From: an uncultured Roseiflexus sp.
Lineage (GTDB): Bacteria > Chloroflexota > Chloroflexia > Chloroflexales > Roseiflexaceae
Assembly: GCA_937935075.1 (NCBI GenBank)
Contig: CALGYB010000113.1
Span: 1-37,300 of the forward strand
DNA: 37,300 nucleotides
Direction of reading: 5' to 3'
A program made the position numbers and the translations under genes. Positions 2,009 to 29,999 of this stretch are shown here, one piece after another; the stretch's first letter is position 1, and each line of letters begins with the position of its first letter. Below the pieces are notes generated by a model, which searched no databases, was not told the DNA's origin, and worked only from the letters and a program-made list of their open reading frames with translations.

Positions 2009-4756
2009 TCACGCATCGGGATCAATCAGTCCAAACCATCCTTTGCGAATCACCCACTTTGCCAGTTCCAACACCGGCGCCACGGTCGCTGCCAGCCCTG
2101 CAATGATCAGCCAGTCGGTCAGCGGCAGGGCATAGGTCCCAAAGGCATCGTGCAGGAACGGCAGATACACGATCAGCGAGAGCAATACCAGTTCCCAGAT
2201 GATTGCCAGGTTGAGCCATTTATTGGCAAATGGCTTATTCCACACCGAATTCCGGTCCGAACGGAAGTTATAGGCTTTGAAGAACTGGATCAACACCAGC
2301 GAAACGAACGTCATCGTCATTGCCTCTTCCAGACTACGCCCCGAATTCAGCGCCCATATGAAGAGCGCCAGGTTGACAATCGTCGACCAGACGCCGCCAA
2401 GCACCATGAGCGCGACCACCGGGCGAGTGAAAATGCCGATCCGGGGATTGCGCGGCTTGCGCTTCATCAGGTCGGCTTCCGGCGGGTCGACGGCCAGCGC
2501 CAGCGCGGGTAATCCGTCGGTCGCCAGGTTGACATACAGGATCTGCACTGCCGAGAGCGGCAGCGGCAGCCCCAGGAACGACGCACCCGCCATCAGCCCG
2601 ATCTCGCCGATGTTGGACGAGAGCAGATACATCAGGTATTTCTTGATATTGCTGAAGACGCCGCGCCCCTCTTCCACCGCCGCCACGATCGAGGCAAAAT
2701 TGTCGTCGGTCAGGGTCATCGCTGCGGCTTCTTTGGTCACATCGGCGCCGGTGATGCCCATTGCCACCCCAATATCGGCCCGCTTGAGCGCCGGCGCATC
2801 GTTGACGCCATCACCGGTCATGGCAACCACATGGCCGTTCGACTGCCAGGCAGTTACTACCCGCAGTTTATGGGACGGCGAAACACGCGCATAAACGCGG
2901 ATATCCTCAACTGCGCGCTTCAACTGCTCATCCGACATGGACTCCAGTTCCGCGCCGGTCACAACACGACCGCCGTTGAGCAGGTGCAACTCCCCCGCAA
3001 TTGCCTGCGCCGTCAAGGGATGGTCGCCGGTAATCATGACCGGGCGAATACCGGCTTCGATACATGTGGCGATTGCGTCTCTGGCTTCGGGGCGGGGCGG
3101 ATCGATCATTCCAACCAGGCCCAGGAAGGTCATACCGGTCTCTGCGTCATCCGGCGTTGCGCCTGGTTTGAACGCAATACCCAGCACCCGCATCGCCTGG
3201 CTCGCCATCTGCTGCGCCTGTAACAGGATCTGCTCGCGCCCGGCGTCATCCAGCAGGTGAATGCCATCGGCGGTAATCACCGTATCGCACCCTTCCAGAA
3301 TGACCTCCGGCGCACCTTTCGCATACGCGGTTACGCCATCCGCTCCCCGATGGAGCGTGGTCATGCGCTTGGTTTCGGACGAAAATGGGATTTCGTGGAT
3401 GCGCGGACTCTCAACATCGAGGGTCTCTTTCCACAATCCGGCTTTGGCAGCCGCGACCACGAGCGCGCCTTCGGTTGGATCGCCCTTGATGTCCCAACTG
3501 CCATCATCTTTCCGAATCAGGCGCGCATCCGACGCGAGAACCGCCGCTTTCAGGGTGAGCACGAGCGGCTCAGGCGGTGAAACCGGATGATCATCGAGAA
3601 GGAACTCGCCTGCGGGCGCGTACCCGGCGCCAGAGACGGCAAAGCATTTCCCGGCAGTGAAGACCTGGCGAACCGTCATTTCATCCTTTGTCAACGTGCC
3701 GGTTTTGTCGGTACAGATCACCGAGGTGCTGCCCAGTGTTTCAACCGCCGGCAGGCGACGGATGAGTGCGTGACGTTTTGCCATCTTCTGCACGCCTATC
3801 GCCAGCGAAATCGTGACGACGGCGGGCAAAGCCTCCGGTACGACCGCCACTGCCAGCGCAATGCCGAAGATCAGCATGTCGATGATCGGTTGCCCGCGCA
3901 GCAGCCCAAGCGCCACGATCAGCGCCACGACAACGAACGCTGCACGCGCCAGCACGCCGCCAACCCGGTCCAGGTTCTGCTGCAGCGGCGTGCGCACCGT
4001 CTCGACCGTCTGGAGCATTTGGGCGATTTTGCCGAACTCAGTGCGCATACCGGTGGCAACGATCAGCGCCTTTCCGCGCCCATACGTCGCCGACGTACCG
4101 GCATACACCATATTCTTGCGGTCTCCCAGCGGCAAATTGTCGCGCCCCAGCGGATGCGCGTGTTTCTCGACCGGAACCGACTCGCCGGTCAGTGCAGCCT
4201 CTTCGATTTGCAGGTTGATCGCTTCGATCAGCCGCGCATCCGCTGGAATACGGTCGCCGGTGTGGAGCAGAATGACATCGCCTGGAACCAGATCGCGCGC
4301 TGGAATGCGGATCTCCTGCCCATCACGCAGCACGGCTGCGGTTGGCGCCGCCATCTGCTGCAAGGCTTCGATAGCGCGCTCGGCGCGGTATTCCTGGATA
4401 AACCCAAGCAGCACCGCAAACAGCACAATAATGGCAATGACGATCGATTCAACGCCATGACCCAAAAAGAACGAAATCGCCGTTGCAATCAGCAGGATGA
4501 TAATCAGAACATTCTTGAACTGTTCGAGCAGAATCTCCCACGGTGAAATGCGCCGCGCCGCCTGAAGTTCGTTGGGACCGTACTGCTCCAGACGTTTGCG
4601 GGCTTCGTTGCTGCTCAATCCGTCGGGTGCGCTGCCGAGCAAGGCGAAAACCTCTTCAACAGCGTATGCATGCCAGCAGTGCTCCGGCGCTGTATCGCCA
4701 TGTGCCGGAGAAGACCCTGTCCGCTCGATATCCGGTTGTACAGTTGAAGGTTTCAT
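2009..4756 (-). CDS. P2A-type cation-transporting ATPase, riboswitch-controlled, probably Mn2+/Ca2+ efflux
   Basis: This 915-residue pump is of the SERCA/PMR1 group. It shows the actuator TGES (190-193), the phosphorylated Asp350 in DKTGT, KGAPE (480-484) and TGDGVNDAP (647-655). About ten membrane helices are present. Ligands matching both SERCA metal sites are seen: PEALP in M4 (307-311; SERCA has PEGLP), NIGE in M5 (715-718) and NLATDG in M6 (743-748). An upstream in-frame ATG (4783) exists, but the ATG at 4756 has GGGAG 8 bases ahead and lies after the leader terminator, so it is chosen. The yybP-ykoY riboswitch just upstream argues for Mn2+ export, since P-type ATPases under this motif (for example Lactococcus YoaB) protect from manganese. 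Ca2+ remains possible from the protein alone. Confidence 0.9.
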   Translation of the reverse strand: MKPSTVQPDIERTGSSPAHGDTAPEHCWHAYAVEEVFALLGSAPDGLSSNEARKRLEQYGPNELQAARRISPWEILLEQFKNVLIIILLIATAISFFLGHGVESIVIAIIVLFAVLLGFIQEYRAERAIEALQQMAAPTAAVLRDGQEIRIPARDLVPGDVILLHTGDRIPADARLIEAINLQIEEAALTGESVPVEKHAHPLGRDNLPLGDRKNMVYAGTSATYGRGKALIVATGMRTEFGKIAQMLQTVETVRTPLQQNLDRVGGVLARAAFVVVALIVALGLLRGQPIIDMLIFGIALAVAVVPEALPAVVTISLAIGVQKMAKRHALIRRLPAVETLGSTSVICTDKTGTLTKDEMTVRQVFTAGKCFAVSGAGYAPAGEFLLDDHPVSPPEPLVLTLKAAVLASDARLIRKDDGSWDIKGDPTEGALVVAAAKAGLWKETLDVESPRIHEIPFSSETKRMTTLHRGADGVTAYAKGAPEVILEGCDTVITADGIHLLDDAGREQILLQAQQMASQAMRVLGIAFKPGATPDDAETGMTFLGLVGMIDPPRPEARDAIATCIEAGIRPVMITGDHPLTAQAIAGELHLLNGGRVVTGAELESMSDEQLKRAVEDIRVYARVSPSHKLRVVTAWQSNGHVVAMTGDGVNDAPALKRADIGVAMGITGADVTKEAAAMTLTDDNFASIVAAVEEGRGVFSNIKKYLMYLLSSNIGEIGLMAGASFLGLPLPLSAVQILYVNLATDGLPALALAVDPPEADLMKRKPRNPRIGIFTRPVVALMVLGGVWSTIVNLALFIWALNSGRSLEEAMTMTFVSLVLIQFFKAYNFRSDRNSVWNKPFANKWLNLAIIWELVLLSLIVYLPFLHDAFGTYALPLTDWLIIAGLAATVAPVLELAKWVIRKGWFGLIDPDA

Positions 4757-4780: not shown

Positions 4781-4817
4781 CAAACAAAAAGACCACCGCT
4801 CTTCAAGCGATGGTCTT
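4781..4817 (-). terminator. Intrinsic terminator in the ATPase leader (riboswitch expression platform)
   Basis: On the minus strand AAGACCATCGCT (4817-4806) pairs over 12 bp with AGCGGTGGTCTT (4800-4789) around a five-base loop, followed by a T-rich tail TTTTTGTTT. It lies between the aptamer and the start codon. Its 5' arm contains CCATC, which also closes the aptamer P1 helix. Confidence 0.85.
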
Positions 4818-4902
4818 GCGGTTTCGTTCAGACAGCCGGGAAATCTCTTTCCGTGATGACGGCCGCCCGACCCGGAAAATCCGGGTGCTACTCCCCATCT
4901 GT
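4806..4902 (-). promoter_or_regulatory. yybP-ykoY (manganese) riboswitch aptamer
   Basis: The minus-strand leader carries the hallmark GGGGAGTAGC near its 5' end (from about 4896). A short hairpin CCCGGATTTTCCGGG follows, then the second conserved loop CCGTCATCACGG and a 3' segment GAACGAAACCGCAAGACC, the order expected for yybP-ykoY. P1 forms from GATGG (4899-4895) and CCATC (4813-4809). The predicted transcription start, about 4902, is immediately before the aptamer. Established knowledge: this class binds Mn2+ and controls Mn exporters and P-type ATPases. Here ligand binding should stabilise P1 and block the terminator, giving an ON switch. Confidence 0.85.
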
Positions 4903-4908
4903 TGCTAG

Positions 4909-4937
4909 AGTATAGCGGGGAAGGCGCATCCCGTCAA
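4909..4937 (-). promoter_or_regulatory. Promoter of the riboswitch-ATPase transcript
   Basis: Minus-strand TTGACG (4937-4932), a 17-base spacer and TATACT (4914-4909) form a near-consensus sigma-70-type promoter placed directly upstream of the riboswitch. Confidence 0.75.
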
Positions 4938-27686: not shown

Positions 27687-29999
27687 CTGAACTGGACCGG
27701 TCTGCTCATTGGGGCGACGTTCTGGCTGGCGATGATCGCGATTGCGCTCATGTTGCTGACGTTGCTGTTTCCGCAACTTGAGCGCCGCGCCGATGACCGC
27801 CGCCGCGCGTCGCCGCTGCTGCACGTGCCACGCCGACAGAATGAACGGCGCGACCTGCCGGCAGTAACGATTGTTGAAACGCAGAAGACCGCTGCACTGT
27901 CACCTTCCGAACAAGCCGTCTACTGGTCGTCGAACGTGCGTGTGATTGTCGTTCTGCTCCTCGTATGGGCTGGCGGCGCGTTTCTCTCCCCTCTTCTGGC
28001 GCCTGCCCTGACTCAGATCCGGGTATTGACCGGCTTTCCGCTTGGGTACTTCCTTGGGGCGCAGGGCGCCCCGCTCCTCTTTCTGGCGCTGACGGCGCTC
28101 TACACGACGGTGATGACACGGCGCGACCGTCGCTTTGGCGGTCGCGTCGTCGGAACCGCGCCGGCGATGACCGATACCTTGCTGCCGGTAGCCCTGGTGG
28201 TGGTCGGCGGCGTCCTGATTATTGTCGCTGATGTTGTGCTCTCTCTGCCGTTGACCGTTATCGGTTGGGGGGCAATTACGCTGACTATTGCCATCTACGC
28301 CGCGATTGGCGTCCGTAGCCGCGCTGTCGACCTGGACGAGTATTATGCAGCCGGACGACGCATTCCGGCGTTTTTCAACGGGCTGGCGATCAGTGCGGAC
28401 TGGATGAGCGCCGCGACATTCATTTCACTTGCCGGGACGCTCTGGATGCTGGGCTATGAGGGTCTGGCGTACATCATTGGCTGGACCGGCGGGTATGTGT
28501 TGCTGGTGCTGCTCCTGGCGCCCTATCTCCGCAAGTTTGGTCAGTACACGATTCCTGAGTTTATCGGCGTGCGGTATGCTTCAACCGCAGCGCGCCTGGT
28601 GGCTGCGGTCGTGACGGTGATTGTCTCGTTTACCTATCTGACGGCGCAGGTGTCGGGCATTGGCCTGATTATGGGGCGCTTCCTCGGCGTCAACTATCTG
28701 TTCGGCGTGGCGATCGGACTTGGCGCTGTGCTCTTCTGTTCCTACCTGGGCGGGATGAAAGCCGTCACCTGGACGCAGGTCGTTCAGGCGATCGTGATCG
28801 TCGTGACCTATCTGACGCCGGCTGCGCTGCTCTCGCTTAAGGATACGGGGATTGCGCTGCCGCAGGTGATGTATGGCGCCGCTTTCGATGTGATTGCCGA
28901 TCTGGAAGCGACACAGGGGATCGCCAGGTCGTATGCCGACCCGTTCAATGACTGGTCGGTCTGGCAGTACCTGGCGCTGGCAGCCTGCCTGATGTGCGGT
29001 ACAGCCGGTCTGCCGCATATCCTGGTGCGCTTTTACACGACGCCATCGGTGATCCATGCCCGGCGCAGCGTCAGTTGGGCGCTTCTGTTCATCGTCCTGG
29101 TCTATCTGACGATCCCTGCCTACGCCGCCTTTTCCCGCTGGGAGATTCTGGCGCATGTCGTTGGCCAATCGGTGCGCTCGTTGCCACAGTGGGCGGTGAA
29201 TTGGGGCAATGCCGGTCTGTTGAGCATTACCGATTTGACAACGCTCGAAGATCGCAGGGTTACGGAACTTCCGGCGTGGGCGGCGGGAGCGCTGGAAAGT
29301 GGCGCTCTCCGGTTTGCCGACGCCAATGGCGATGGCCGCATTCAGCTCGATGAACTGAGCGGTCGCATGGTCACACCTTTGTCAACTGACGGCATCCTCC
29401 AGTACAATGAGTTGAAGATCAGTCCTGACCTGGTGGTGATCTCAACCCCTGAAATTGTCGGGTTGCCCGGCGCTGTCGCTGCACTGGTGATCGCAGGCGG
29501 TCTGGCGGCGGCGTTGAGCACTGCCGATGGCTTGTTGATGGTCATTACCTCATCGGTGGCGCTGGATGTCTATCAGTCGCTCAATCGGCGCGCCGTGACG
29601 CGCACGCTGCTTGCCATCGGTCGCGCGACACTGTTTCTGGCAGCGTTGCTGGCGGCATTGACGGCGCTGCGCCAGCTGGGGATCATCGTTGAACTTGTCG
29701 CCTGGGCGTTCTCGATTGCCGCCGCGACCATGTTCCCCGTGCTGACGCTTGGCATCTTCTGGCGCCGCGCCAATCGGCAGGGTGCGATCGCTGGCATGCT
29801 CGCCGGATTACTCACGATTATCGGCGCAATCCTGGCCAACTGGCTGAGTCCAACCACCGCCATCCTTGGCATTTCTGGTCCGGCGAGCGGTATCTTCGGA
29901 ATAATCGCCGGTCTGACAGCGACGGTCGTGGTCAGTCGGTTGACCCCGCCGCCGCCGCCGGCAACCCAGACGTTGATCGATGCGCTGCGGCGTCCGTGA
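27687..29999 (+). CDS. Sodium:solute symporter with fused DUF4212 small subunit
   Basis: About 770 residues. After a first helix, residues about 80-150 match the DUF4212 small subunit (YWSSNVRVIVVLLLVWAGG, then GFPLGYFLGAQGAPLLFL). The SSS large subunit follows (about 165-760) with EYYAAGRRIPAFFNGLAISADWMSAATF (split here: AAGRRIPAFF, SADWMSAATF), FCSYLGGMKAVTWTQVVQ and STADGLLMVITSS. It belongs to the acetate/organic-acid group (VC_2705-like), where the two subunits are usually separate genes. An EF-hand-like loop DANGDGRIQLDE lies near residue 550. The first ATG (27732) has no ribosome site and would cut the first helix. AGGAGG at 27676-27681 precedes an in-frame CTG at 27687, which I take as the likely start. 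It follows the kinase by 36 bases, so it is probably in the same operon. Confidence 0.82.
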   Translation: MNWTGLLIGATFWLAMIAIALMLLTLLFPQLERRADDRRRASPLLHVPRRQNERRDLPAVTIVETQKTAALSPSEQAVYWSSNVRVIVVLLLVWAGGAFLSPLLAPALTQIRVLTGFPLGYFLGAQGAPLLFLALTALYTTVMTRRDRRFGGRVVGTAPAMTDTLLPVALVVVGGVLIIVADVVLSLPLTVIGWGAITLTIAIYAAIGVRSRAVDLDEYYAAGRRIPAFFNGLAISADWMSAATFISLAGTLWMLGYEGLAYIIGWTGGYVLLVLLLAPYLRKFGQYTIPEFIGVRYASTAARLVAAVVTVIVSFTYLTAQVSGIGLIMGRFLGVNYLFGVAIGLGAVLFCSYLGGMKAVTWTQVVQAIVIVVTYLTPAALLSLKDTGIALPQVMYGAAFDVIADLEATQGIARSYADPFNDWSVWQYLALAACLMCGTAGLPHILVRFYTTPSVIHARRSVSWALLFIVLVYLTIPAYAAFSRWEILAHVVGQSVRSLPQWAVNWGNAGLLSITDLTTLEDRRVTELPAWAAGALESGALRFADANGDGRIQLDELSGRMVTPLSTDGILQYNELKISPDLVVISTPEIVGLPGAVAALVIAGGLAAALSTADGLLMVITSSVALDVYQSLNRRAVTRTLLAIGRATLFLAALLAALTALRQLGIIVELVAWAFSIAAATMFPVLTLGIFWRRANRQGAIAGMLAGLLTIIGAILANWLSPTTAILGISGPASGIFGIIAGLTATVVVSRLTPPPPPATQTLIDALRRP

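Follow-up and report, generated by a model that had tools for sequence, protein, structure and literature searches.

Which signal governs the gene for a P2A-type cation ATPase in an uncultured Roseiflexus sp., and which ion does its product move? The question arises from one leader within the 37,300 nucleotides of DNA that we analysed (contig CALGYB010000113.1; the whole stretch is called the window below). Positions 4937-4756 of the minus strand hold a promoter, a leader with the layout of a compact yybP-ykoY (Mn2+) riboswitch, a terminator that overlaps it and the start of the pump gene. The original prediction for this DNA had named no strand; all of the parts that it claimed lie on the minus strand.

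Layout and covariation of the leader

A consensus scan found a sigma-70-type promoter with 10/12 consensus matches, against 0.1 expected in shuffled sequences, and its form, TTGAC[GT]-N17-TATACT, is kept in five Roseiflexus genomes, in agreement with the near-consensus promoter that had been claimed. From the spacing, the transcript is expected to start at ~4900, just 5′ of P1.1, and the leader spans ~145 nt between the promoter and the ATG of the P2A ATPase (Table 1). The two yybP-ykoY motifs of the original prediction are also present, GGGGAGTAGC at 4896-4887 and CCGTCATCACGG at 4862-4851 (minus strand), and the L1 core expected of a Mn2+ riboswitch is found as GGGGAGUAG at 4896-4888. A long arm (4869-4829) with an asymmetric UCAUCAC bulge follows, and 3′ of it GCAAGACCAUC runs into the terminator. 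The predicted order of a terminator and then the pump start codon was likewise recovered, with the ATG 25 nt past the T-run. The leader fold is far more stable than that of shuffled sequences (z = -5.0).

Table 1. Positions of the promoter, leader and pump features in the window
Feature	Position	Strand	Basis
-35 box TTGACG	4937-4932	-	Consensus scan; kept in five Roseiflexus genomes
-10 box TATACT, 17-nt spacer	4914-4909	-	Consensus scan; kept in five Roseiflexus genomes
Predicted Mn2+ (yybP-ykoY) riboswitch aptamer, compact, without helix P4	4806..4908	-	R2 57.1 bits; R1 90 bits; RF00080 14.5 bits, under cut-off
Switch helix P1.1, 5′ strand GATGG	4895..4899	-	Alignment and transcript folding; compensatory variation in more distant leaders
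L1 core GGGGAGUAGC	4887..4896	-	Sequence; also in relatives
Hairpin P2 (ACCCGG-AUUUU-CCGGGU)	4870..4886	-	Fold and alignment
P3 leg: helix 4869-4860/4838-4829, L3 4859-4853, upper helix 4852-4848/4843-4839	4829..4869	-	Compensatory changes
L3 adenosine (UCA core), place of the Mn2+-discriminating A41/A48	4857	-	56/56 leaders; role from PMC6754395
Switch helix P1.1, 3′ strand CCATC, common to terminator	4809..4813	-	Terminator scan, transcript folding, overlap scan
Intrinsic terminator: stem 4817-4789, T-run 4790-4781	4781..4817	-	Terminator scan and folding
P2A-type cation ATPase, 915 aa from ATG at 4756	2009..4756	-	Pfam E1-E2 ATPase, Cation_ATPase N and C; NCBIfam nearest PMR1-type, under cut-off

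Among close relatives of the pump in public genomes with upstream DNA read, 29/79 have GGGGAGTAG within 900 nt upstream. We built two leader alignments, A1 from 22 close leaders and A2 from 56 wider leaders, gathered with a search pattern in which GGGGAGTAG and AGACC are fixed. Conservation of these two elements is therefore circular; the GUCA of L3 lies outside the selection pattern, so its invariance in 56/56 aligned leaders, which includes the adenosine at the metal-contacting position, is not. A1 contains 33 cells with compensatory double changes compared with 8.2 in shuffles, and A2 contains 232 compared with 80.9, with no shuffle reaching the real value in either case. The real register also lies far above all slid-register controls in both alignments. 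Compensatory changes occur in the helices below and above L3, and in the lower P3 helix they affect 5/10 pairs in A1 and 7/10 in A2. P1.1 lacks covariation support in the close group because it has only 5 bp and is invariant there; covariation of this helix is seen in distant leaders only. No fourth helix (P4) was found in leaders of the Roseiflexus and Anaerolineae group, and P4 is present in leaders L091, L117, L122 and others. Since compact and P4-bearing sister leaders serve the same pump clade, we treat P4 as variable and not as defining.

Relation to characterised manganese riboswitches

No Rfam family reached its gathering score within the window. With its thresholds relaxed, RF00080 matches the leader from one end to the other with a score of 14.5 bits (genome-wide E 0.155), which sets the leader apart from the RF00080 model and lies under the gathering score of 45 bits, a threshold for annotation and not a biological feature. 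The original prediction had proposed an RF00080 search as its check and had named the lack of a hit above the gathering score as its refutation, and the leader does not pass that search. We rejected the gathering score as a decisive test, since throughout the class it fails where an independent covariance model succeeds. The training set of that model, R2, comprised 21 leaders of the class that come from other genera; most of them precede TerC and YrbG-type genes and some precede other P2A pumps, and all Roseiflexus leaders and all leaders from close pump loci were left out. R2 matches the window leader at 57.1 bits (E 8.4e-12), a homology to other leaders of the class that makes no use of the window, and it has no other match in those P2A, TerC and cation-diffusion regions of this genome that were read. 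RF00080 in turn scores the training leaders of R2 at up to 40.8 bits. A second model, R1, made from 56 leaders with that of the window included, scores the window leader at 90 bits, a value that contains its own contribution to the training.

Such leaders were found with R1 in 89/158 genomes of the class, nearly all with E below 1e-7, compared with 2/158 for RF00080 at its cut-off, so the low score against Rfam is a property of the lineage as a whole. That the compact form has no P4 may contribute, yet P4-bearing relatives also score low. Collectively the independent covariance model, the covariation, the L1 and L3 core and a switch helix common to the terminator uphold the prediction of a manganese riboswitch directly ahead of the P2A ATPase, and we regard membership of the leader in the yybP-ykoY class as almost certain. 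Hits to SSRC10, psRNA14, SNORA68 and Tymo_tRNA-like were set aside, as all are below their own cut-offs. SSRC10, a Streptococcus sRNA family, matches the same leader (window 4784-4900, minus strand) at 21.8 bits, and this family may itself be a Mn-type leader.

The yoaB gene of Lactococcus lactis codes for a P-type ATPase. The yybP-ykoY (Mn2+) riboswitch has been characterised upstream of yoaB and in Xanthomonas oryzae; of all members of the class, the yoaB leader has been studied best (PMC9190785). An adenosine of the L3 UCA (A41/A48) gives the Mn2+-specific N7 contact in the characterised class (PMC6754395). The Roseiflexus leader shares with the RF00080 class the L1 GGGGAGUAGC, the L3 UCA core with the metal-contacting adenosine and the P3 leg; unlike the crystal structures it has no P4, and three helices meet at its junction in place of a four-way one (PMC6754395). 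Homology to this class points to Mn2+ as the probable ligand. A 2013 survey of five Chloroflexi genomes includes yybP-ykoY among its motifs, and the supplement of that survey might already list this site (PMC3766115). Our search of the available literature found no paper that joins Roseiflexus, manganese and a riboswitch.

P1.1 and the terminator are mutually exclusive

The 3′ strand of P1.1, CCAUC at 4813-4809, sits inside the 5′ arm of the terminator. When growing transcripts were folded, P1.1 (GAUGG/CCAUC) formed once CCAUC had been made and was displaced when the 3′ arm of the terminator appeared, and the full leader reached -41.2 kcal/mol with P1.1 forced compared with -52.4 kcal/mol when free. 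Under a strict scan this overlap of P1.1 and terminator is present in 55/73 leaders examined, including all five from Roseiflexus. In the L. lactis switch Mn2+ stabilises P1.1 and prevents termination (PMC11087558), and the Roseiflexus leader resembles that ON switch in that the 3′ strand of its P1.1 belongs to the terminator. Since this strand is part of the terminator stem, Mn2+ is expected to switch the gene ON, and we consider antitermination a very probable mode of control. At low Mn2+, CCAUC would be taken by the terminator stem and transcription would stop before the pump gene. At high Mn2+, L1 and L3 would dock around the ion and stabilise P1.1, a ligand dependence that we propose by analogy with the riboswitch class; the terminator would then be blocked and the P2A ATPase made, the product most likely exporting Mn2+ and possibly Ca2+ too.

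The pump, its clade and its probable substrate

The pump has the full P2A domain set of the PMR1/SPCA-type and SERCA-type ATPases, with cation ATPase N, E1-E2, HAD and C-terminal domains together with DKTGT and TGDGVND. SPCA1 carries Mn2+. The nearest solved relatives of the pump are SPCA1 (8iww) and LMCA1 (6zhf), with E down to 1e-183 to SPCA1. The original prediction held that sequence alone would label this protein a Ca2+ ATPase. Its nearest models are indeed of the Ca2+ type; the sequence does not compel the label, because the pump stays under both equivalog cut-offs, with 745.3 bits against 798.3 for TIGR01522 (PMR1-type) and 672.2 bits against 703.4 for TIGR01116 (SERCA-type). It further differs from both types in belonging to a clade of its own, which is marked by the near-invariant M4 motif VVPEALPAVVTI. 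The membrane segments of the pump read VVPEALPAVV in M4, SSNIGE in M5 and NLATDGLPA in M6. By the ion-site assignments of SERCA, M5 keeps the SERCA-like Asn/Glu that are missing from SPCA1, a point that counts against Mn2+ export, and M8 has Gln at the place of Glu908.

In a FastTree phylogeny, which has long branches elsewhere, 84/109 pumps fall into one clade with support 100. Leaders recur with this clade: 42/84 of its pumps have one and for the other 42/84 none was detected within the DNA examined, the two states being clustered on the tree. Manganese control is therefore not universal for such pumps, half of the clade having no detectable leader within 1.5 kb. Among close relatives at public loci the leader lies upstream on the pump strand in 39/80, with 3 loci cut by a contig end and 2 hits weak, and the same leader is found in 5/6 Roseiflexus genomes. 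No leader was found at the four other P2A pumps of this genome or at the TerC and cation-diffusion genes read from it. We rejected the PEALP of M4 as a signature of manganese control, since the switch-bearing L056 pump, of another clade, has PEGLP and many PEALP pumps are switchless. Among the close loci checked for Mn exporter genes beside switchless pumps, the only case is L129, with a GDT1 gene behind its own leader; a TerC fragment adjoins the pump at L138, a locus with a switch.

Several pump loci have features of their own. At L129 (4240-5289), in a deltaproteobacterial genome, the pump gene is followed by a Mn-type leader and then a GDT1/UPF0016 gene. In the single-contig Roseiflexus genome G065 (L156, G065:C1:162000-172000) the riboswitch is intact and the pump frame stops early, at 749 aa and before M6, which makes the pump appear broken in this genome. 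At ~27/80 close pump loci, in Anaerolineae-type genomes, the gene immediately 5′ of the pump encodes a conserved protein of 73-90 aa with two hydrophobic stretches (RKYWKPALATGAGGTSLIIWFEEI...YLFNHFVFK; for example L069:1252-1470). It sits between the riboswitch and the pump where a switch is present, occurs also at switchless loci, belongs to no Pfam or NCBIfam family and has no significant match in Roseiflexus. This membrane protein may be a pump subunit of the Anaerolineae.

The genome is that of a phototroph, as had been stated, since one of its frames, of 652 aa, has two photosynthetic reaction-centre domains. The genus Roseiflexus was found to lack MntP, GDT1 and Nramp; cation-diffusion genes are present in 6/6 of its genomes and TerC in most. 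None of the neighbours of the pump gene (a STAS-domain protein, MurJ, a LytR-type protein, an epimerase, valyl-tRNA synthetase and a TRAP transporter) is known to be connected with manganese. Downstream, the first gene in which a domain is recognisable lies on the opposite strand, and no other gene appears to be on the pump transcript. Elsewhere in the window, positions 27732-29999 of the plus strand encode a sodium:solute symporter with an N-terminally fused DUF4212 domain.

Genes behind leaders of the class include TerC, a YrbG-type exchanger and GDT1, families that are tied to Mn export elsewhere (PMC9936198). Mn-type leaders also precede genes not known as Mn exporters at L029, L138, L169, L172 and L017, namely those for a PF04298 zinc metallopeptidase, Spo0M, an M50 peptidase with a CBS domain and an amino-acid permease. 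In genome G030, of the same order, there are eight Mn-type leaders, several of them close together on contig C537.

A precedent comes from Streptococcus pneumoniae, where a Mn-sensing riboswitch activates the P2-type ATPase MgtA (Martin et al. 2019, as described in PMC9331361 and PMC9936198), and MgtA is reported to export Ca2+ as well as Mn2+ when Mn2+ toxicity is extreme (PMC9936198). By its published description MgtA shares with the Roseiflexus locus the arrangement of a Mn riboswitch ahead of a P2-type ATPase; the two organisms belong to different phyla, and Roseiflexus has neither MntP nor GDT1. Since E. coli Alx is under a Mn riboswitch and appears not to be an exporter (PMC9936198), such control does not prove export.

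How far could the leader be something else? That it is a mere terminator hairpin with chance motif matches would fit the lack of an Rfam family at gathering score, and it has next to no chance of being right, because the match of the independent model (E 8e-12) and the covariation already refute it and the element is carried by 89 of the 158 genomes. A yybP-ykoY relative with a changed ligand, responding to another divalent metal or to pH in place of Mn2+, would accord with the RF00080 score of only 14.5 bits, the compact form without P4 and the leaders that precede the permease, Spo0M and peptidase genes. We hold this to be very improbable, as the leader retains the L1 motif and the L3 adenosine, L3 is invariant, leaders with and without P4 stand ahead of pumps of one clade, and known Mn families are among the genes behind leaders of the class. 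A riboswitch that senses Mn2+ could also control a Ca2+ (or Ca2+/Mn2+) ATPase that balances Ca2+ against Mn2+ and does not chiefly export Mn2+. The PEALP, SSNIGE and NLATDG of M4, M5 and M6 keep the Ca2+-site residues of SERCA, the nearest models are Ca2+ pumps of the PMR1 and SERCA types, and pneumococcal MgtA is reported to export Ca2+ too (PMC9936198). Set against these points, MntP and GDT1 are missing from the genus, other leaders of the class stand ahead of TerC, YrbG and GDT1 families, M8 has Gln and not the Glu908 of SERCA, and both Ca2+ equivalog cut-offs are missed, which leaves a Ca2+-balancing role rather unlikely.

We therefore favour, with good confidence, a genuine, compact and lineage-divergent Mn2+ riboswitch that turns ON a P2A ATPase most likely exporting Mn2+ (possibly Ca2+). 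Because its gene starts with the kind of RNA switch that senses manganese, production of the pump is probably triggered by accumulating manganese; that Mn2+ is the ion exported is likely in view of this regulation and of the MgtA precedent. More tentatively, and with the odds somewhat against it, the widespread P2A clade with M4 VVPEALPAVVTI and M6 NLATDGLPA may be devoted to Mn2+ export, recurrently under compact Mn2+ riboswitches overlooked by Rfam, and joined in Anaerolineae by the small membrane protein as a possible pump subunit.

Mn2+ riboswitches ahead of P-type ATPases are already known from pneumococcal MgtA; the present analysis adds a compact variant that is common in Chloroflexota and almost absent from Rfam-based annotation, together with a prediction of the substrate of a pump clade. 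Given the 2/158 genomes reached by RF00080 at its gathering score and the 89/158 reached by the lineage-trained model, standard annotation largely overlooks the manganese regulons of Chloroflexota. Regulation offers a substrate prediction for a pump that is ambiguous by sequence alone, and for its whole clade. If true, a clade of Mn2+ exporters would redefine many genes that are now called calcium or generic cation ATPases.
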